Source: Cellulomonas sp. WB94 (GTDB lineage: Bacteria; Actinomycetota; Actinomycetes; Actinomycetales; Cellulomonadaceae). Taken from it: a stretch of DNA of 64,000 nt. The stretch is taken from assembly GCF_003115775.1 (NCBI RefSeq), contig NZ_QEES01000002.1, positions 2,108,001 to 2,172,000 on the forward strand, read 5' to 3'. The position numbers and the translations under genes were made by a program. Below are positions 50,013 through 60,080 of this stretch, one piece after another. Numbering within the stretch: the stretch's first letter is position 1; every line of letters begins with the position of its first letter. The notes beneath the pieces were generated by a model that saw only the letters and a list, made by a program, of their open reading frames with translations, was not told the DNA's origin and ran no database searches.

Positions 50013-50822
50013 GTGCGTCGCCCCCTTCTCGCCACGCTGACCGCGGTCGCCGCAGCGATCGCCCTGCTGGCCGGCTGCGGATCCTCCGCCGGCAGCGACG
50101 CCGGGGCTCCGGCGGGCAGCGCGTCGGCGTCCGGCACGCCCCCGACGTTCGCCGGCAAGATCACCGTGTTCGCTGCGGCGTCCCTGACCGGGTCGTTCAC
50201 GACGCTGGGCAAGCAGTTCGAGGCGGCTCACACGGACGCCACGATCACGTTCAGCTTCGGGCCCAGCTCCGGGCTGGCCACCCAGATCACCGAGGGAGCG
50301 CCGGCCGACGTCTTCGCGTCCGCGTCGGCCAAGAACATGGACGCCGTGGTTGCCGCCCAGGCCGCCGAGGCTCCGTCGACGTTCGCCGAGAACGTCATGG
50401 AGATCGCCGTCGCGCCCGGCAACCCCGCGAGGATCGCGACTCTCGCCGACCTCGCCCAGGCCGACGTCAAGGTCGCGCTCTGCCAGCCGGACGTCCCGTG
50501 CGGCACCGTCGCGGCCAAGGTTCTCGCCGCTGCGGGCCTCACCGTCACCCCGGTCACCCTCGAGGCCGACGTCAAGGCCACGCTGACCAAGATCGAGCTC
50601 GGCGAGGTCGACGCCGGCCTCGTCTACGTCACCGACGTGCTCGCTGCGGGCGACAGGGTCATGGGGATCGAGATCCCGGCTGACGTGAACGCCGCCACGA
50701 GCTACCCGATCGCGACCCTCGCCGCATCGACGAGTCCCGAGCTGGCGAAGGCGTTCGTCGACTACGTCCTGTCGGCCGACGGCGCCCGCGTGCTGGCTGC
50801 CGCGGGCTTCCAGACGCCGTGA
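50013..50822 (+). CDS. modA: Molybdate ABC transporter substrate-binding lipoprotein
   Basis: The 269 residues begin with a lipoprotein signal (MRRPLLATLTAVAAAIALLAGC, lipobox L-A-G-C) and a Ser/Gly/Ala linker. The ModA fold follows: ITVFAAASLTGSFTTLGKQFEA, FSFGPSSGLATQITEGAPADVFASAS, LCQPDVPCGTVAAKVLAAAG and VDAGLVYVTDVLAAGDRVMGIEIP. Binds molybdate or tungstate outside the membrane. GTG start. It overlaps modB by four bases. Confidence 0.93.
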   Translation: MRRPLLATLTAVAAAIALLAGCGSSAGSDAGAPAGSASASGTPPTFAGKITVFAAASLTGSFTTLGKQFEAAHTDATITFSFGPSSGLATQITEGAPADVFASASAKNMDAVVAAQAAEAPSTFAENVMEIAVAPGNPARIATLADLAQADVKVALCQPDVPCGTVAAKVLAAAGLTVTPVTLEADVKATLTKIELGEVDAGLVYVTDVLAAGDRVMGIEIPADVNAATSYPIATLAASTSPELAKAFVDYVLSADGARVLAAAGFQTP

Positions 50823-51685
50823 CGACGCTGGTGCGAGTGCCGCGTCGAACCTCGGGGCCCGACGGCGACCGCCGCACCCGGTCCGTCGCCGACGTGACCT
50901 CGCGTGCGCCGTGGCCGCTGGCCGTCCCGGCCGTCGTGGCCGTCGCCTTCCTCCTGCTCCCGCTGGTGGGTCTGCTGCTGCGGGCCTCCTGGCGCGACCT
51001 GCCCCGGCTGCTCCTGGAGTCGGAGGCCGTGGGCGCCCTGCGGCTCTCGCTCGTCACGGCGACGATCGCGACGGTGATCTCGCTGGTCCTCGGGGTGCCG
51101 TTGGCCTGGGTGCTGGCCCGCGCACGCTTCCGGGGCCGCAGCCTGCTGCGCGCCCTGGTCACCCTGCCCCTGGTGCTGCCCCCGGTCGTCGGCGGCGTGG
51201 CTCTGCTGTTCGCGCTCGGGCGACGCGGGTTCATCGGTCAGTACCTGGACCAGTGGTTCGGGATCACCCTGCCCTTCACCAGCGCGGGCGTCGTCCTCGC
51301 CGAGACGTTCGTCGCCATGCCGTTCCTGGTCGTCACCGTCGAGGGTGCCTTCCGCTCGGCGGACCTGGGCCTGGAGGAGGCCGCGGCCACGCTCGGCTCG
51401 CGCCCGTTCGCCACCTTCTGCCGCGTCACGCTGCCGCTGATCGCGCCGAGCCTGATCGCCGGGAGCATGCTCTGCTGGGCGCGGGCACTGGGGGAGTTCG
51501 GCGCGACCATCACGTTCGCCGGGAACCTGCCGGGGGTCACGCAGACCATGCCGCTCGCGGTCTACCAGGCGCTCGAACGGGACCCCGACGCGGCCGTCGC
51601 GCTGAGCCTCGTGCTCGTGGTCGTCTCGATCGCGGTCCTCGGGCTGCTGCGTGAGCGCTGGCTCCACCCGGGCGCGACCCTGTGA
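50819..51685 (+). CDS. modB: Molybdate ABC transporter permease
   Basis: The 288 residues have five or six membrane helices: PLAVPAVVAVAFLLLPLVGLLL, LRLSLVTATIATVISLVLGVPLAWVLA, LVTLPLVLPPVVGGVALLFALG, AETFVAMPFLVVTVEGAF, SLVLVVVSIAVLGLL. The EAA loop is seen in GLEEAAATLGSRPFATFCRVTLPLIAPSLIAG. The N-terminal cytoplasmic tail (MTTLVRVPRRTSGPDGDRRTRS) is long for the family. GTG start at 50819 overlaps modA; modC overlaps the end. Confidence 0.93.
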   Translation: MTTLVRVPRRTSGPDGDRRTRSVADVTSRAPWPLAVPAVVAVAFLLLPLVGLLLRASWRDLPRLLLESEAVGALRLSLVTATIATVISLVLGVPLAWVLARARFRGRSLLRALVTLPLVLPPVVGGVALLFALGRRGFIGQYLDQWFGITLPFTSAGVVLAETFVAMPFLVVTVEGAFRSADLGLEEAAATLGSRPFATFCRVTLPLIAPSLIAGSMLCWARALGEFGATITFAGNLPGVTQTMPLAVYQALERDPDAAVALSLVLVVVSIAVLGLLRERWLHPGATL

Positions 51686-52872
51686 CCGCGCCGGCCGTCG
51701 CACGCGGGGGACTGCACGCCGACGTGGTCGTCGGACGCGGCGACTTCCGGCTCGAGGCGGCCTTCCGGGTCGCCCCCGGCGAGGTCCTCGCCGTCCTCGG
51801 GCCCAACGGCGCCGGGAAGACGACCCTGCTGCGCTCCCTCGCGGGGCTCGGTGCGCTGACCGACGGCCGCCTCGTGGTCGGCGCCGACACGTGGGACGAC
51901 GCCCGGGCCGGGGTCTTCGTGCCGGCGGTCGACCGTGCCGTCGGGCTCGTGTTCCAGGACTACCGGCTCTTCCCGCACCTGAGCGTGCTGGACAACGTCG
52001 CGTTCTCGGCGCGAGCCAGAGGCGCGCGGCGCACGGACGCACGACGGGACGCCGCCGACTGGCTCGCGCGCATGGACCTCGCCGACCTCGCCCGCAGCAG
52101 GCCGGGGGCGCTGTCGGGTGGGCAGGCGCAGCGCGTCGCACTGGCCCGCGCGCTCGCGTGCGACCCGCAGCTCCTGCTGCTCGACGAGCCGCTCGCGGCC
52201 CTCGACGCGCGGACCCGGCTGGAGGTGCGCGGCGAGCTGCGTCGCCACCTGGCGGCGTTCGGCGGTCCGAGCATCCTGGTGACCCACGACCCGCTCGAGG
52301 CCATGGTCCTGGCCGACCGACTGCTTGTCCTCGAGTCGGGCCGCATCGTCCAGGAGGGCACGCCGGCCGAGGTGGCCCGGCGACCCGCGACCGACTACGT
52401 CGCGCGCCTCGTCGGCCTCAACCTCTATGCCGGCACGATGACCGACCGCGGTACCCGACGTGTCGACCTCGACACCGGCGGGGTCCTGTTCGCCGCCGGG
52501 CACGGCCAGGACGCGGACGACGAGGACGCGGCGACGCCGGCTGCGGCAGGCACGGGCATGCTCGTCGTGCTCGCGCCGACCGCGATCTCCATCCACACCA
52601 GCCGACCGGACTCAGGCTCTGCGCGCAACACGTGGACGGGGGTCGTCGCAGGGCTCGAGCTCTTGACCGACCGGGTGCGCGTCGCGGTGGACGGCACCCC
52701 GTCGGCGCTCGTCGACATCACGCCCGCTGCGGTCGCCGACCTCCGGCTCGCGCCGGGTCAGCCGGTCTGGCTGACCGCCAAGGCCACCGAGGTCATCGCC
52801 TACGCCGACCCGGGACCGACCCCGGCGCGCGCCCCGGCCTACGCCCCGGCCACGGATGGTCCGACGCGCTGA
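51682..52872 (+). CDS. modC: Molybdate ABC transporter ATP-binding protein
   Basis: The 396 residues contain Walker A (LGPNGAGKTTLLRSL), Q-loop VFQDYRLFPHLSVLDNVAF, the signature LSGGQAQRVALARALA, Walker B LLLLDEPLAALDAR, and switch His in ILVTHDPLEAM. The C-terminal 130 residues contain a TOBE/Mop-like domain (WTGVVAGLELLTDRVRVAVDGTPSALVDITPAAVADLRLAPGQPVWLTAKATEV), which senses molybdate. GTG 51682 overlaps modB. The insertion HGQDADDEDAATPAAAG makes the TOBE region slightly longer than usual. Confidence 0.92.
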   Translation: MTAPAVARGGLHADVVVGRGDFRLEAAFRVAPGEVLAVLGPNGAGKTTLLRSLAGLGALTDGRLVVGADTWDDARAGVFVPAVDRAVGLVFQDYRLFPHLSVLDNVAFSARARGARRTDARRDAADWLARMDLADLARSRPGALSGGQAQRVALARALACDPQLLLLDEPLAALDARTRLEVRGELRRHLAAFGGPSILVTHDPLEAMVLADRLLVLESGRIVQEGTPAEVARRPATDYVARLVGLNLYAGTMTDRGTRRVDLDTGGVLFAAGHGQDADDEDAATPAAAGTGMLVVLAPTAISIHTSRPDSGSARNTWTGVVAGLELLTDRVRVAVDGTPSALVDITPAAVADLRLAPGQPVWLTAKATEVIAYADPGPTPARAPAYAPATDGPTR

Positions 52873-53091: not shown

Positions 53092-53466
53092 CGTCGCTCA
53101 CCTCGGATCCAGAGTAGACGCGAACACCGGCGTTCTGCGAGGCAGCGGAGGCACCGTCGGGGGCCTGGGGAGTTCACCCGTTCTCGCTCCGTTGGACGTT
53201 TGACCAGGAACCCTCCGAGGATCCACAATTGCTTTGACAGTGCGCATCGCCTGCCCCCTGCGCGGTGCGCACTGTTCACGTCCGGTGTCGGGCGGGCCTC
53301 CTCGCGGGGCTCGCCCGATCACCCGGAACGGACCATCCGGACAGCTCCCCGCCACCGCGCGGGTCGAGGCAGATCCGCACGATCACCCTCTTCGCCACCC
53401 CCCTGATCGCCGGGCCATCGGCGTGCCACGCGTCCGTCCGCGAGCCGTGCGGTTAGCGTTCCCCAC
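53092..53466. other. Long intergenic region without a gene
   Basis: This 375-base gap separates DUF1918 from the large helicase-like gene on the other strand. It is less codon-like than its flanks, with scattered A/T. A TTGACA hexamer is at 53234-53239, but no matching -10 was found at the usual distance. It may hold the divergent promoters. I see no RNA gene or repeat. Confidence 0.5.
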
Positions 53467-56400
53467 GTGACCGTCCCTGCGCGCACGTCCGGCTCGGGAC
53501 CCGGAATGGCACCCGAGTCCGACGCGACCACCTCTGTCGACCCGACGGCCTCGTCGTCGGCGCCGGTCCTCGTCTCCTCGCCGTCCGCCGACGAGCTCGT
53601 GGCCGGTGCGGTCGCGACCTGGCGCGGTGCGCTGGTCGAGGCCGCCGGTGGGTCGACCCTGTCCAACGTCGATCTCCTCGGTGACGCCGCGCTGGACCTG
53701 TCGGCGGCGCACCCGTCGGGCATCGCGCAGCTCTTCGCGGGCCGCGAGACCCGCCTGTCCAACCTCGTGCGCGAGGGTGGCTCCCTCGCGACCGCGAAGC
53801 GCCGGGCCCGGAGCGTCGGGTCGCGCGCCGAGAGCTACGCGCAGCGCTACGGCATCGCCCCGACCTACCTCGCGATCGGCGTGGCGACCTGGACCGAGCG
53901 GACGACGCCGGACGTCGCGTCCGACGACGTCGCGGCCCTCGCCGCGGTCACGCGCGCGGCCCGGGTCCAGCGCGCCGCATCGGCCTACGACGTCGACGCC
54001 GACGGCGGGACGCACACGCCCGCTGAGCCCCGCACGGTGCGTGCGCCGGTGCTCCTGCGGCCGGTGTCGCTGCGAGCCCGGGGAAGCGGCGAGAGCGACT
54101 ACGAGCTCGCGCTCGAGCCGTCGCTCGAGGTCAACCCGATCCTGGCGCGCGCGCTGCGCAGCCGCGGCGCGCTGCTCGACCCGGGTGCGGTGGCACGCGG
54201 AGCATTCACCGGCACCGGGTTCGACCCGCGGCCCGCGCTCGACCGGCTCACGTCGCTCGGCGCCGCCGTGCTCGAGGACTTCGAGCTCGTCGAGCGCATC
54301 GTCGTCGGAACGTTCGTGCACCCCGGACAGGTCCTCGTCGACGACCTGGACGCGCTGTCCGGCACGCTCGACCGGCACGAGGTCGTCGCAGCGCTCGCGG
54401 GCGTCGAGGAAGCGCGCGCGGGTCTGCGGCGCCCGGTGCCCGCCCCGGTCCGCGGCGACCGGGACCCCGATCTCGAACGTGGCGTCGGGGACCTCGACGC
54501 CGCTCAGCAGCATGTCCTGGACGTGATCGCGACCGGTGAGCACCTGTTCGTCGACGCGCCGACCGGGAGCGACGTCACCGGCATGCTCGCTGCCGTCGTG
54601 GCCGACGCGGCAGCGTCGGGGCGCACCGTCCTGTACGTCCCCGGGCACCGGCGGGCGTCCTCGGCGCTCAAGGCTCGGCTCGAGCAGCTCGGTCTCGACG
54701 ACCTCCTCCTCGACGTGGCGCCCGAGGCCGGCTGGCGCACCGCCGTGGGCCGTCGGCTGCTCGGTGCGATGACGCTCGAGGTGCGGCCGCCCGAGCACAC
54801 CCGCATCGACGGTGTGCGCCGGGACCTCGTCAAGCGGCGCGAGCAGCTGCGTGCCTACGTCGCGGGGCTGCACGCCGAGCGCGAGCCGTGGGGGGTCTCT
54901 GCGTACGACGCGCTGCAGGCGCTCGCGCGGCTCACCGCCGCCCGCCCCGCCCCTCGCACGACCGTCCGGCTCGGCGTCGACGTCGCGCGCGTGCTCGACG
55001 CCGAGCGGCGCACCGCGCTCGCGGCCGACCTGGCCCGGGTGTGCGAGCTCGGCGCGTTCACGCTCCAGCCGTCGGACACCCCCTGGTTCGGTGCCGACCT
55101 GCTGACCGACTCCGCCGCGCACAGTGCGCTCGAGACGCTCGGACGCGTGCTCGGCTACGGACTGCCACGCCTCACCGAGCGGGTCGCGGAGGTCTCGGCA
55201 GCGACCGGACTGGTCCCCGCCACGACCGTCGCCGCCTGGGGTGAGCAGCTCGTCATGCTCGGCGGCATCCGCGGTGCGCTCGACCTGTTCCAGCCGATGA
55301 TCTTCGAGCGGACCGCCGCCGACCTCGTCGCCGCGACGGGCACCAAGGAGTGGCGCGAGCAGCACGACCTGCCCATGGGCTACTGGCTCCGTCGTCGCCT
55401 GCGCAAGCAGGCCAAGGACATGGTCCGCCCGGGTCGCCCCGTCGCCGACCTTCACAGCGCGCTCATCGAGGTGCAGAAGCAGCGCCAGATCTGGCAGGCG
55501 CACTGCCCTGCGGGCGGCTGGCCGCAGCTGCCCGAGGGGCTCGCCACGATCGAGGACGAGTTCCGCGACCTGAGCGCCGACCTTGACGAGCTCGACGCAG
55601 CGCTCACCGGGACACCCGGGGGAGCCGGCCTGTTCGAGGTGCCCCTGCCCGAGCTCACCGCCCGGCTCGCCCGGCTGGTCACCGACCGCGCCGCGCTCGA
55701 GACGCTGCCCGCGCGGACCGCTCTCGAGCGTTCGCTGACCGCCGCGGGTCTCGGCGACCTCCTCGCCGACCTCGCGCGTCGTCGTGTCGACGCCGAGCTG
55801 GTGGGTGCCGAGCTCGAGCTGGCGTGGTGGAGCACGGTGTTCGAGCAGATCCTCACCGCCGACCCGGCCCTCGCGGGGTACGACGGCGCGACGCTCGGGC
55901 AGCTCTCTGCGGAGTACGCCGCCTTCGACCGTGAGCACGTCGCGAGCCTGTCGACGCCGGTGCGCAACGCGGTCGTCGGCCACATCGGCACGGCCTTGCG
56001 CATGCACCGCGACCAGGCCGAGGCGCTGTTCGGCGAGCTCGTCGAGGACCGCATGACTTCCGTGCGCGAGACGGTCGCCCGGTACCCCGACGTCACCCGG
56101 CGGCTGCGCCCTGTGCTCGCCGCCTCACCGATGCTCGTGCCGCAGCTGCTGCCCGCGTCGCGCACGGTCGACGTCGTCGTCATCGACGCGGCTGCCCAGC
56201 TGCCCGTCGAGGTCGCCGTCGCGGTCATCGCCCGGGGTCGGCAGGTCGTCGTCGTCGGCGATGCGCGCTGCGCGTCCGGCACCGCCGTGCGTGACCTCGC
56301 CGACGTCCTGCCGGTGGTCGCGCTGCGTGCCGACGCGTCCCGCCGCGACCCGTACCTGACCGCGTTCCTCGCGGCGCACGGCTACGAGGGTGTTCTCAGC

Positions 56401-58068
56401 CCGACCCCGCTCCCCGAGAACTCACCGCTCGTGCGGCTCGACGTCGTCGACGGCACCGGCATGCCCGACGCCACCAGCGGGACCGTCGAGGGTCCGCGCG
56501 CCGAGGTCGAGCACGTCGTCGAGCTCGTCCTGACGCACGCGCTGACCCGCCCGGACGAGTCGCTCGCTGTGCTCACGCCGTCGATCGTCCACGCCGACCT
56601 CCTGCGCGAGGCGGTGCTCGCCGAGGTGCGCGCCAACCCGAGCCTCGCCGTGTTCTTCGACTCGGGCCGCGTCGAACCCTTCGTCGTCGCCGACCTCACG
56701 GGGGTCGCCGGGCTCCGCCGCGACGCCGTCATCTTCACGCTCGGCTACGGACGCACTCCGCACGGTCGGGTGCTGCACCGCTTCGGCCCGATCGGCGATC
56801 CTGGCGGTGACGCCCGCCTGCTCGACGCGCTCGGCGCGACCCGGCACCGTCTCGACATGGTCGCGAGCTTCGCCGCGGCGGACCTCGACCCCGCCCGGCT
56901 GCGCGGTCCGGGCGCACGACTGCTCGCCGACCTGCTGGCCTTTGCCGAGCGTCGCGGGCAGGGTGCGACGACGGATGCGCTGACGAGGGTCGCCGTTCCC
57001 GAGCCGGCCGTCCCCGAGCCCCCGATGACCGACGACGCGGGCGACGAATCGACCGGCTCCGACCTGGCGGACGGCGCGTCCGGCTCCGACCTGGCGGACG
57101 GCGCGTCCGGTTCCGACGCAGTCGCCGACGCCGCACCTGTCGATGACGAGCCGATCGAGTCCGGCGCCGGTGAGCAGACGATCGCGACCGCGGACCACGC
57201 GGAGCCCGACCGTCTCGTCGTCGACCTGGCCGAGCGGCTGTGGCGCCACGGGCTCGTCGTCGAGATCGACCACGGACTGCCCGGCGGCACGCGCATCCCG
57301 CTCGCCGTGGGCCACCCGGACCTCCCGGGACGCCTCCTGGTCGCCGTCCTGACCGACGACGAGGCGTACGTCTCCGAGCCCAGCATCCGCGTCCGCGACC
57401 GCCAGGTCGCCGACCGTCTCGACCGTCTCGGCTGGAGCGTCGTGCGGGTGTGGTCTGCCGCCGCCTTCCTCGACCCCCAGGCCGAGGTCGACCGGATCCG
57501 GCGCGCCGTGCACGCCACCATGCTCGCGTCGCCGCGGGCGGTCGCCCCTCTGATGGTGACCCCGACGGTGAGCGACGACGACCTGCTGCCGGTCGCGACC
57601 GAGACGCCGATCGACGGGATCGGGGTGGTGGCGCCGGGCCTCACGGACCTCCCGGCCCGGCCGGTCGCCGCGGCGTTCATCCCGGCGCCCGCTGTGGCAC
57701 CCGCACCCGCACCCGCACCCGAGCAGCCGATCATCGACTCGGTCCCGCAGGCCGCTGCCGAGGTCGCCGGGCTGCACGTCGTCGCGGACGCCGTGCCGGC
57801 CGCCACGCCGGCCGCCCCGGTCCTGCACGTCGAGCAGCCGACCCTGGCCGTGCCGACCGGTCCCCGGCCCCACGTGCGATCCGGGCTGCCGGTCAGCGCC
57901 TACAGCGACGACGAGCTCGACGAGATCATCACGTGGATCACGTCTGACGGCTCGGAGCGCAACCGCGAGGAGCTCGCTGCCCGCGTACGCGAGGAGCTCG
58001 GGATGACGCGGCGCAGCTCGCGGGTGGACGCCGTCGTGGCCGCCGCTGTCCGTCGCGCGACCCGCTGA
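53467..58068 (+). CDS. Large UPF1/SF1 helicase-like protein with C-terminal nuclease-like domain, motifs degenerate
   Basis: The 1533 residues include a DUF4011-like N-terminus and a P-loop region near residues 355-375 that reads DAPTGSDVTG, lacking the Walker A Lys. A second motif region near 900-930 reads VVVIDAAAQLPVEVAVAVIARGRQVVVVGD, where DEASQ is expected. C-terminal helicase-type motifs are present (PSIVHADLLREAV, VAGLRRDAVIFTLGYGRTPHGRV). At about 1250-1345 is an MTES_1575-type restriction-endonuclease-like fold (VEIDHGLPGGTRIPLAVGHPDLPGRLLVAVLTDDEAYVSEPSIRVRDRQVADRLDRLGWSVVRVWS). Its catalytic acidic/E residues also look substituted. Start GTG 53467. Role unknown; possibly structural or regulatory. 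Confidence 0.8.
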   Translation: MTVPARTSGSGPGMAPESDATTSVDPTASSSAPVLVSSPSADELVAGAVATWRGALVEAAGGSTLSNVDLLGDAALDLSAAHPSGIAQLFAGRETRLSNLVREGGSLATAKRRARSVGSRAESYAQRYGIAPTYLAIGVATWTERTTPDVASDDVAALAAVTRAARVQRAASAYDVDADGGTHTPAEPRTVRAPVLLRPVSLRARGSGESDYELALEPSLEVNPILARALRSRGALLDPGAVARGAFTGTGFDPRPALDRLTSLGAAVLEDFELVERIVVGTFVHPGQVLVDDLDALSGTLDRHEVVAALAGVEEARAGLRRPVPAPVRGDRDPDLERGVGDLDAAQQHVLDVIATGEHLFVDAPTGSDVTGMLAAVVADAAASGRTVLYVPGHRRASSALKARLEQLGLDDLLLDVAPEAGWRTAVGRRLLGAMTLEVRPPEHTRIDGVRRDLVKRREQLRAYVAGLHAEREPWGVSAYDALQALARLTAARPAPRTTVRLGVDVARVLDAERRTALAADLARVCELGAFTLQPSDTPWFGADLLTDSAAHSALETLGRVLGYGLPRLTERVAEVSAATGLVPATTVAAWGEQLVMLGGIRGALDLFQPMIFERTAADLVAATGTKEWREQHDLPMGYWLRRRLRKQAKDMVRPGRPVADLHSALIEVQKQRQIWQAHCPAGGWPQLPEGLATIEDEFRDLSADLDELDAALTGTPGGAGLFEVPLPELTARLARLVTDRAALETLPARTALERSLTAAGLGDLLADLARRRVDAELVGAELELAWWSTVFEQILTADPALAGYDGATLGQLSAEYAAFDREHVASLSTPVRNAVVGHIGTALRMHRDQAEALFGELVEDRMTSVRETVARYPDVTRRLRPVLAASPMLVPQLLPASRTVDVVVIDAAAQLPVEVAVAVIARGRQVVVVGDARCASGTAVRDLADVLPVVALRADASRRDPYLTAFLAAHGYEGVLSPTPLPENSPLVRLDVVDGTGMPDATSGTVEGPRAEVEHVVELVLTHALTRPDESLAVLTPSIVHADLLREAVLAEVRANPSLAVFFDSGRVEPFVVADLTGVAGLRRDAVIFTLGYGRTPHGRVLHRFGPIGDPGGDARLLDALGATRHRLDMVASFAAADLDPARLRGPGARLLADLLAFAERRGQGATTDALTRVAVPEPAVPEPPMTDDAGDESTGSDLADGASGSDLADGASGSDAVADAAPVDDEPIESGAGEQTIATADHAEPDRLVVDLAERLWRHGLVVEIDHGLPGGTRIPLAVGHPDLPGRLLVAVLTDDEAYVSEPSIRVRDRQVADRLDRLGWSVVRVWSAAAFLDPQAEVDRIRRAVHATMLASPRAVAPLMVTPTVSDDDLLPVATETPIDGIGVVAPGLTDLPARPVAAAFIPAPAVAPAPAPAPEQPIIDSVPQAAAEVAGLHVVADAVPAATPAAPVLHVEQPTLAVPTGPRPHVRSGLPVSAYSDDELDEIITWITSDGSERNREELAARVREELGMTRRSSRVDAVVAAAVRRATR
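57061..57114 (+). repeat. 27-base tandem duplication inside the helicase-like gene
   Basis: Two 27-base units (57061-57087 and 57088-57114, one mismatch) encode DLADGASGS twice. They lie in an acidic, probably disordered linker before the nuclease-like domain. The frame is kept. Confidence 0.75.
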
Positions 58069-58417: not shown

Positions 58418-58873
58418 TCAGACCACCGGGGGCGTCCCCGGACCGGTGCCGGGGGTGGCGTCGTTGCGAATCGCGGGGCTGGACTGCCCGGCGAGCAGAT
58501 CGCGGATCTCCTGCAGCAGGAGGATGTCCTCGGACGGTGCGGACGGCTCCTCGACGAGGCCCTTCTTGCGGCGCTCGGCGAGGGAGTTGATCGGGAGAAC
58601 GATGAGGAAGTAGACGGCCGCCGCAATGAGCAGGAACTTCAGAAGACCGTCCAGGACAAGGCCGATCGAGAAGTCCGCGTGGTTGAGCGTGAAGTTCCCG
58701 ACGGCCGTGAGGTCCGGCTGGCCGAAGATCGCGGCGATCAGCGGAGTGACGATGCCGGTGACGATGGCTGTGACGACGGCTCCGAACGCGGCACCGAGAA
58801 CGACGGCGACGGCGAGGTCGATCGCGTTGCCGCGAGAGATGAAGTCCTTGAATCCATTGAGAATGTTCTTCAT
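58418..58873 (-). CDS. mscL: Large-conductance mechanosensitive channel
   Basis: The 151 residues match MscL: the N-terminal amphipathic helix and pore helix (GFKDFISRGNAIDLAVAVVLGAAFGAVVTAIVTGIVTPLIAAIFG), the periplasmic loop, the second membrane helix (GLVLDGLLKFLLIAAAVYFLIVLPINSL), and a long charged cytoplasmic bundle (EDILLLQEIRDLLAGQ). It releases solutes under hypo-osmotic shock. Single gene, well-formed start at ATG 58873. Confidence 0.95.
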   Translation of the reverse strand: MKNILNGFKDFISRGNAIDLAVAVVLGAAFGAVVTAIVTGIVTPLIAAIFGQPDLTAVGNFTLNHADFSIGLVLDGLLKFLLIAAAVYFLIVLPINSLAERRKKGLVEEPSAPSEDILLLQEIRDLLAGQSSPAIRNDATPGTGPGTPPVV

Positions 58874-58907: not shown

Positions 58908-59573
58908 TCATTCCACAATGACCGCACTCAGCAGGGCCGACGGGCCAGCCCCTGCGAGTGCCGCTGCTTCAGCGGGTGCGACGGCGAGCAGCAGCGGGGG
59001 CGCGCTGTCATCGGCATTGCGACCCGCGCGATCGCCTGAGGCGACGACGAGCGCCCCGCGAGCGAGCGGTCGGCCCGTCGTGCCGTCGTCGGTCGCCGCG
59101 AGGACGTCGACGCGCGTCCCCGTCGCGAGGAGGGCAGCGACGGCCGGGTCGGCGAGCCGCACCGCGGCCACGACGGTGCCGGGAGGCGCCGTGACCAGGT
59201 CGTGCACGAGAAGTCCGTCGACCATCGGGAGGCCGGCGGGCACCTCGACCGCGAGCGAGGCCCCGACGAGCGGCTCGGCCGAGGTCGGCGCCCCGGACGG
59301 TACGAGACCGCTCGGCATCTCGGCGAGGTCGAGGTCGGACGCGACGAGGACGTGCCCGGCGGACAGCGGGTGTGACGCGACAGGCACAGAGGACGTCTGA
59401 GCAGGTGGGGGACGCAGCTCACCGACGACGACGGCGCACGCGATCCCGAGCAGCAGGGCCGTCACCGGCAGGCGAGCGCGCCACAGCAACACACGCAGGG
59501 GAGGCAGACGCCGACGACCGGCGCTGCGGTCGAGGGGCGCGCGGCGAAGGTCGAGGTCGTCGGGGGAGTGCAC
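58908..59573 (-). CDS. SAF-domain protein (CpaB/RcpC-like)
   Basis: The 221 residues have an N-terminal basic region and a single membrane segment (RLPVTALLLGIACAVVVGELR). An SAF domain follows (VASHPLSAGHVLVASDLDLAEMPSGLVPSGAPTSAEPLVGASLAVEVPAGLPMVDGLLV), then Ala/Val-rich beta strands. This is the layout of Flp-pilus assembly protein CpaB/RcpC, but no pilus genes are seen, so it may be an orphan surface protein. In many actinobacteria it lies next to the fmdB-like gene, as here. Confidence 0.75.
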   Translation of the reverse strand: MHSPDDLDLRRAPLDRSAGRRRLPPLRVLLWRARLPVTALLLGIACAVVVGELRPPPAQTSSVPVASHPLSAGHVLVASDLDLAEMPSGLVPSGAPTSAEPLVGASLAVEVPAGLPMVDGLLVHDLVTAPPGTVVAAVRLADPAVAALLATGTRVDVLAATDDGTTGRPLARGALVVASGDRAGRNADDSAPPLLLAVAPAEAAALAGAGPSALLSAVIVE

Positions 59574-59662: not shown

Positions 59663-60019
59663 TCAGCTCGTCGCGGCGGAGGCGGAGCTCGAGGAGCTGG
59701 ACGAGGTGTTGGACGTCGCGCCGGCGGCAGCCTTCGCCGGGGCGGTCGTCGTCGGGGAGGACGAGGAGTCGCTCGACGACGCGGCCGGGGTCGACGTCGA
59801 GGCCGAGGACGACGTCCCCGCCGACACCGTCGACTTCGACTTCGAGCGCGAGTCGTTGCGGTAGAAGCCCGACCCCTTGAACACGACGCCGACGGGCGAG
59901 AACACCTTGCGCAGCAGACCGTCGCACACCGGACACACCGTCAGCGAGGAGTCGGTGAACGACTGCTGGATGTCGAAGCTGTGGCCGCAGACTGTGCAGG
60001 TATAGGCGTAGATGGGCAC
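59663..60019 (-). CDS. FmdB-type zinc ribbon protein
   Basis: GTG 60019 follows GGGAGA and gives 118 residues. The N-terminal CxxC...CxxC ribbon is VPIYAYTCTVCGHSFDIQQSFTDSSLTVCPVCDGLLRKVFSPVGVVFKGSGFYRNDSR. The rest is a low-complexity Ser/Thr/Ala tail (SSSASTSTPAASSSDSSSS). FmdB-like proteins are thought to be small regulatory zinc proteins. A CIRCE-like operator lies 62 bases upstream (60081-60107). Confidence 0.85.
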   Translation of the reverse strand: MPIYAYTCTVCGHSFDIQQSFTDSSLTVCPVCDGLLRKVFSPVGVVFKGSGFYRNDSRSKSKSTVSAGTSSSASTSTPAASSSDSSSSPTTTAPAKAAAGATSNTSSSSSSSASAATS

Positions 60020-60080
60020 TGAGGTCTCCCGTGACGTCGAGCGGAGCGGCACTGCCGGGTCCCCGTCGCAAGGGGCCGTG

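Follow-up and report, generated by a model that had tools for sequence, protein, structure and literature searches.

The proteins ProA (NF058533), PDC-S37 (PDLC05009) and Hhe (NF042953/PDLC02194) share a DUF4011 - superfamily 1 (SF1) helicase - Vsr architecture, and the protein described here can be aligned with them over its helicase and Vsr parts. Judging from the family names, we take all three to be anti-phage factors. Defence genes are usually patchy in distribution. The MTES_1575 protein of Microbacterium testaceum likewise joins an SF1 helicase to a Vsr-type nuclease and has given its name to a Pfam domain. In the relevant sections of PMC3710099 it is listed with HEPN, transglutaminase, SF-I helicase, Vsr REase and two wHTH domains, the table entry “Active” referring to the HEPN domain. 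Unlike the present protein, it exceeds 2,100 aa and carries these further domains, and thus resembles the 2,000-aa accessory class distinguished below, not the core class.

The gene under study spans 4.6 kb and lies in a window of 64,000 nucleotides (the whole stretch of DNA that was analysed) from Cellulomonas sp. WB94. It was found in 96 of the 99 genomes searched from its order, no role for it was found in print, and Pfam misses its helicase part. No paper describing the gene by title or abstract was returned by a literature search that did not extend to most subscription papers. The comparisons reported here support the view that the gene encodes a core, mainly vertically inherited pseudoenzyme, probably derived from a DUF4011-helicase-Vsr protein. 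The order appears to preserve at one locus a natural series that begins with an active enzyme of defence type and ends with a pseudoenzyme, and may thereby show how a helicase-nuclease can be used without either activity.

Gene Structure and Domain Organization

The protein consists of a DUF4011-like N-terminus, an SF1 helicase core of UPF1 type with a helical insert of 460 aa, a Vsr-like (MTES_1575) domain and a short tail. Its features are as follows (window coordinates, strand):

53467..58068, +: whole gene, pseudo-helicase/pseudo-nuclease of 1,533 aa; GTG start, frame intact at exactly these coordinates
53596..54471, +: DUF4011-like N-terminal region, aa 44-335; Pfam DUF4011 below cut-off; conserved W52, H82, P83, G85, R102, G129, G138, W142
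54553..54582, +: degenerate Walker A DAPTGSDVTG, aa 363-372 (K to V370); from alignment, between the first strand and helix in the model
54667..56046, +: middle domain, mostly helical, between Walker A and motif II, aa 401-860; model helices, conserved residues
56176..56199, +: degenerate motif II VVIDAAAQ, aa 904-911 (DEASQ to DAAAQ); from alignment
56251..56271, +: degenerate motif III, aa 929-935 (GD kept, QLPP lost); from alignment
56317..56916, +: second RecA-like domain, aa 951-1150; alignment, structure model and fold search
56704..56730, +: degenerate motif V, aa 1080-1088 (QGDERD to AGLRRD); from alignment
56803..56853, +: degenerate motif VI, aa 1113-1129 (ITRAR to LGATR); from alignment
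57205..57516, +: Vsr-like (MTES_1575) domain, aa 1247-1350, with D1278P, E1295L and D1297 kept; Pfam E 2.7e-12, alpha-beta-beta-beta-alpha-beta in the model
57889..58065, +: C-terminal tail, aa 1475-1533, weakly like DUF3320 (winged helix); E 0.053, below cut-off and the sole Pfam match there

An initial annotation had reported an intact 4.6-kb frame with normal codon use, and both points were confirmed: GC content by codon position is 0.80/0.53/0.92 in ORF 53467-58068, resembling the 0.80/0.56/0.92 of the adjoining ModC gene. An antisense ORF of 874 aa (53383-56007, -) was rejected as a gene; its codon-position GC mirrors that of the sense frame, and it is therefore taken as a high-GC artefact. 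In the genome (3.87 Mb, 7 contigs), the whole protein gives one full-length match without stops.

In a Pfam scan, MTES_1575 was matched at aa 1254-1347 (47 bits against a cut-off of 38.2) and DUF4011 below threshold at aa 184-227 (E 0.0013, 19.2 bits against 22.2), and neither AAA_11 nor AAA_12 was matched in the window protein at E up to 1. The syntenic relatives L103 and L113, which keep their catalytic motifs, match DUF4011 (29 bits, above the cut-off), AAA_11, AAA_12 and MTES_1575. The NCBIfam profiles ProA (E 1e-101, 341.5 bits of the 1500 required) and Hhe (1.5e-49, 168.5 of 2000) and the PADLOC profile PDC-S37 (1.4e-101) align to the window protein in pieces. The four motif-bearing orthologues scanned (L103, L113, L118 and L128) reach 696-804 bits with ProA, likewise under the cut-off.

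An AlphaFold2 model of aa 330-1350 is of only moderate quality (mean pLDDT 77.2, pTM 0.55). It places the P-loop between a strand (aa 360-363) and a helix (aa 370-383); motif II lies where the strand of aa 901-907 ends. As these are the canonical structural places, the catalytic residues do not lie elsewhere, so that the structure-based refutation named in the initial annotation does not apply. The best Foldseek matches of the model are Ighmbp2, Setx and Upf1 (E 3.8e-9 for 4b3g to 7e-8) with TMq of about 0.2; such low TM-scores are expected if the RecA-like pair alone matches, and two RecA-like domains of UPF1 type, as in SF1B helicases, are seen at these scores. The N-terminal fold has no PDB match at E up to 0.001, and a sequence search of the PDB gave no credible relative, its two matches lying at E 0.4-0.5.

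Degeneration of the ATPase and Nuclease Motifs

Relatives with working motifs carry GPPGTGKSQ (Walker A) and VVFDEASQ or VIFDEASQ (motif II) in the aligned columns; hence K370 has become V and E908 has become A, which bears out the earlier reading of a P-loop without Lys and of a DEAD/DEASQ-like motif turned into DAAAQ. A shift of the P-loop Lys to another position was considered and rejected, since no Lys occurs throughout aa 340-400 and the modelled loop is in its canonical place. Against the same working relatives, motif III has changed from GDxxQLPP to GDARCASG and motif VI from NVAITRAR to LDALGATR (motifs are numbered I, II, III, V and VI by the usual convention). In the nuclease part, RIDLA has become RIPLA (D1278P) and ExD has become LxD (E1295L). 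The catalytic positions of the nuclease had been regarded as lost altogether; this is correct for two of the three acidic residues, but D1297 is retained. In family f1, which tree neighbours suggest to be the Cellulomonadaceae sensu lato, LTDD mostly takes the place of the nuclease ExDG (window 57349-57360), and several further families have (L/V/M/F)TDD there; this replacement is possibly a new metal site.

The state of the motifs across the order was counted by applying text patterns to an alignment, the nuclease pattern being rough. Of 116 rows, four were dropped: L013 and L083, whose Vsr parts contain masked bases and which look like duplicates of a single contig, L110, where the contig ends, and L122, whose frame is split. 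The remaining 112 orthologues include close relatives and are not independent. Walker A GK[ST] and DE[AS] are both kept in the same five (L103, L113, L118, L128 and L166), motif III in six, motif V in six, motif VI in 39, the first nuclease acid in 25 and ExD/DxD in 27. By pattern, L166 is without motifs III and V, which leaves four fully live copies. Both nuclease patterns are found in 22 rows, 17 of which have no Walker A Lys (for example L104, L119 and L126 of f6, L105 of f7 and L109 of f11). Three stages are thus present in the order: some copies have all motifs, others have lost the ATPase but keep the nuclease pattern, and others again are dead at both sites.

Among 7 accessory relatives and 9 relatives from outside the order, all keep Walker A and motif II, and the ExD pattern is present in 9/9 outside relatives vs 1/7 accessory ones. 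Four further outside copies (L213-L216) comprise three with Lys and one, L214, with Arg, so that the former count of 16/16 gave way to 19 of 20 accessory or outside relatives with the Walker A Lys. Motif loss is not a matter of chance, as losses recur across the order while 19/20 of these relatives keep the Lys. L214 (G379, f83) has no DE pair and neither mscL nor the other neighbour genes described below within 12.5 kb; loss therefore does not require the core locus, and L214 represents a further, separate-looking loss.

In family f95, which belongs to another order of the class, the Lys is Arg in all eight copies fetched (L206-L212, L217); the first nuclease acid is gone and the acid-x-Asp mostly retained. 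This may be a separate decay.

The own genome carries, outside the window, an accessory relative (L080; G000:C2, about 1344200-1350500, -) with intact ATPase motifs and matches to AAA_11, AAA_12, MTES_1575 and DUF3320. About 700 of its N-terminal residues are out of frame, owing to a frameshift or an assembly error.

Distribution, Genomic Locus and Inheritance

The closest named relatives are from Cellulomonas, with best segments at 91% (L001) and 73% (L002) identity. The Walker A Lys is absent from the window protein and from all 31 loci of the first list of relatives, among them Isoptericola and, at 30% identity, the bifidobacterium Aeriscardovia. The family is present in 41/41 genomes of the own taxonomic family. 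Within the order, 96/99 genomes are positive by profile and 83/99 by one protein piece; one of the 96 (G069) shows the 2,000-aa type only. The spread that the initial annotation wished to see examined is thus near-universal at these levels. In a sample of the phylum, 20/246 genomes were positive (six from the own order), and in a sample of the class 29/148 (10 from the own order, 10 from f95). The search of the order scored the top-ranked candidates of each genome and listed matches up to E 1e-25; among the matches listed, 75 of the 96 family-positive genomes have one and 21 have two or more, some of these being pieces of one gene. None of the matches listed in the family and order searches contains a stop. 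In G068 the copy (L122) falls into two frames, one of 1,277 aa and one of 279 aa, through mutation or assembly error. In G092, a genome of 0.8 Mb and 99% completeness from f4 (probably the bifidobacteria, again from tree neighbours), a dead copy of 1,205 aa is retained (L129, about 3.6 kb).

Downstream of the gene, the window contains three convergent genes:

58418..58873, -: mscL, convergent conserved neighbour; Pfam MscL 5.9e-32, synteny
58908..59573, -: gene for a SAF-domain protein, conserved neighbour; Pfam SAF 1.1e-7, synteny
59663..60052, -: gene for a zinc ribbon protein, presumably of FmdB type, conserved neighbour; Pfam Zn_ribbon_8 3.1e-12, synteny

Synteny was assessed for the 104 orthologues with at least 2.5 kb of downstream sequence, again including close relatives that are not independent. 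At least one of mscL, SAF, fmdB and 5-FCL lies within 6 kb on the opposite strand in 95 of them, and two or more in 88. The same neighbourhood was found for 0/15 accessory or outside relatives, and none of the four genes was seen around L213-L216. Nine of the 104 are elsewhere or rearranged, including all five f11 copies fetched. The five copies with a Walker A Lys are also situated at the mscL-SAF-fmdB locus, so that live and dead orthologues occupy one locus. In f95, mscL occurs in 8/8 fetched stretches (4.4 kb away in L210) and fmdB in six, the stretches of L208 and L210 ending soon after mscL. An initial assumption restricted the core gene to the order; this was wrong, as f95 has a dead copy at the same locus. 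Of the co-occurring genes about which the initial annotation had asked, the downstream group is conserved, but no upstream partner is: the largest upstream cluster comprises 12 loci, and upstream neighbours therefore give no operon clue. In the window, an ABC transporter operon that we assume to be of the molybdate type (solute-binding protein, permease, ATPase with TOBE; 50013-52872) lies directly upstream and is not conserved at the locus.

The f11 copies (L109, L122, L191-L193) lie off the mscL locus; the four with a readable Vsr part have no Walker A Lys and keep acidic nuclease residues (for example RIELAL, DTDG).

Trees were built from columns that exclude the motifs; 25 rows, partly near-duplicates, were left out of a 107-row tree and further rows out of a 52-row and a 50-row tree. 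In the quick tree of 107 rows, the orthologues of the order form a clade of 91 rows (SH-aLRT 100) with an inner clade of 83 rows (100) in which no row has the Walker A Lys. The careful 52-row tree recovers an order clade of 41 rows (100/99), an all-dead clade of 33 rows (100/97) and a sister f5/f17 clade (95/98) composed of five Lys-keeping and three dead copies. When f95 and L214 are added (50 rows), f95 (itself 100/100) is sister to the order at 88/81. By parsimony, the Walker A site changed 2, 3 and 4 times in the trees of 107, 52 and 50 rows, respectively. A single ancestral ATPase loss is disfavoured by these counts, but a single clade comprising every dead row narrowly escapes rejection in an AU test (p-AU 0.058). 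On these trees ATPase loss is ancient, and nuclease loss looks repeated, with 9 changes by the rough pattern on the 107-row tree. Horizontal replacement by a different dead gene was rejected because live and dead copies share the locus and cluster mostly by family.

Selection on the Degenerate Domains

Values of dN/dS were calculated by NG86 for 12 homologue pairs, among them the pair with the closest relative, L001. Against L001, the whole gene gives 0.13, the Walker A block 0.08, the motif II/III block 0.05, the second RecA domain 0.06, the Vsr domain 0.05, the tail 0.03, the N-terminal region 0.06 and the middle domain 0.12, and two linkers give 0.48 and 0.39. Over the 12 pairs, the whole-gene value ranges from 0.08 to 0.40; the values of 0.29-0.40 come from four distant pairs, in which the dead domains reach 0.33 and the linkers 1.1 and dS is less reliable. 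Neighbouring genes gave 0.21-0.76 in 20 comparisons (mscL 0.28 and SAF 0.29 against L001). By these estimates the dead domains are under strong purifying selection, which holds in 12/12 pairs, contrary to the loss of selection that the initial annotation had named as a refutation. Together with motif loss, spread and shared locus, they strongly support the initial proposal that catalysis was lost and selection kept.

Conservation was scored over 82 dead rows, each family counting once (threshold 0.86; gaps of the G85 type in single rows were excepted). The conserved positions include the eight N-terminal residues listed above and N223; W540, A623, R642, R654, L666, G761, R772, W787 and W788 in the middle domain; and D902, D932, G1114, G1149, D1297, G1322 and W1323 elsewhere. 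In the middle domain, W540, R642, R654, G761, R772, W787 and W788 are also present in the live copies L103, L113 and L118. Residues conserved in active relatives and lost in dead copies include the catalytic positions and also H956 and Y957. At 35 chosen positions, nearly all of them non-catalytic, the same three live copies do not differ from the window protein, and L128 matches it at 32; the positions were picked for conservation in dead copies, and the comparison therefore demonstrates retention, not enrichment. Two of the 35 (R1126, D1297) lie in motif VI and the nuclease site. The comparison suggests that the property common to live and dead copies is not catalysis. The C-terminal tail is alike in the live L103 and L118 and absent in several families, and it therefore cannot carry the shared function.

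Proposed Origin and Function

In the scenario suggested by these comparisons, the ancestor would have been an anti-phage type of protein, similar to ProA, PDC-S37 and Hhe and built of DUF4011, SF1 helicase and Vsr nuclease, which became fixed at one chromosomal locus in actinobacteria and was from then on inherited mainly vertically. ATPase catalysis would have disappeared at an early stage across most of the order and nuclease catalysis on repeated occasions, while strong selection continued to act on the folds and on the N-terminal and middle helical domains. The RecA-like pair and the Vsr-like fold might serve as a passive channel for DNA or RNA, and a partner might bind to a face formed by the N-terminal and middle domains. 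By analogy with RecC, we infer a nucleic-acid-binding scaffold role. A house-keeping role is favoured by the fixed locus, by the near-universal presence and by the fact that a genome of 0.8 Mb retains the gene. That a former anti-phage enzyme is now a core pseudoenzyme acting as a non-catalytic, nucleic-acid-binding scaffold in chromosome upkeep is a reading to which we give an even chance. We hold more tentatively, and with some doubt, the wider claim that the common ancestor of a large group of actinobacteria domesticated a helicase-nuclease of phage defence, turning it into a core protein of genome maintenance, so far undescribed, that works without catalysis; on this view the order still exhibits the stages, mostly at one locus.

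Of the three roles put forward in the initial annotation (scaffold, decoy or defence sensor), the scaffold appears most likely. A sensor would still be a defence factor, binding phage nucleic acid without catalysis and signalling via a partner. What speaks for it is ancestry: ProA, Hhe and PDC-S37 are the closest named families, and PMC10250203 describes a hotspot of defence genes in P. aeruginosa that has a DUF4011 gene as core flank. The near-universal presence, mostly at one locus beside house-keeping genes, the low dN/dS, the dead copy kept in the 0.8 Mb genome and NCBIfam scores far under the cut-offs make this role unlikely. A decoy or dominant-negative regulator would need an active relative in the same cell, and the own genome does carry one with working ATPase motifs (L080). 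That relative is out of frame in its N-terminal part, however, and since three quarters of the family-positive genomes (75/96) have one match among the matches listed, an active relative is no constant partner. A decoy would be refuted by dead genes in genomes that lack an active relative; these counts already go most of the way, and we consider a decoy very improbable.

The replaced sites might alternatively form a new catalytic or metal site. The replacements are conserved within the own family (DAPxxxD for the P-loop, mostly LTDD for ExDG, with D1297 kept), but those of the P-loop vary between families of the order and most shared conserved residues lie outside both sites, so that a neo-enzyme seems decidedly improbable, if less so than a decoy. 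Relaxed selection on a decaying gene would account for the lost motifs, the two fast linkers and the one split copy (G068). It is contradicted by the lack of stops in any match listed, by dN/dS of 0.05-0.08 in the dead domains where the adjoining mscL and SAF genes give 0.28 and 0.29, and by conservation across the order, which already refutes it; we assign it hardly any probability. The non-catalytic scaffold accordingly remains our preferred reading.

Comparison with Known Systems

The window protein shares with ProA and Hhe the MTES_1575/Vsr domain. It falls short of their curated scores, has no DUF4011 match over the cut-off and lacks working ATPase motifs and the full set of nuclease acidic residues. 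In contrast to ProA, PDC-S37 and Hhe, its catalytic residues are lost, and it is a core protein found mostly at one locus. The SF1 helicases UPF1, IGHMBP2 and Senataxin are its best fold matches in the PDB; compared with these, motifs I, II, III, V and VI are changed, and the 460-aa helical insert and the nuclease-like C-terminus are added. A further parallel is Utp25, a helicase-similar protein of a ribosome-assembly machine that is termed a pseudohelicase (PMC9539457); Utp25 differs in being eukaryotic and in having an unrelated role.

In RecC of RecBCD, as the relevant portion of PMC1185551 describes, a nuclease-like domain without catalytic features forms a hoop for ssDNA, so that an inactivated PD-(D/E)xK nuclease-like fold is reused for ssDNA passage. 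RecC comes from another nuclease lineage and is a member of a known complex, and it is likened to the window protein by proposed function, not by sequence; its absence from the family, PDB-sequence and best 50 fold matches is no test of homology. RecC also has dead helicase domains, and the window protein likewise unites in a single chain a helicase fold and a nuclease fold that are both dead.
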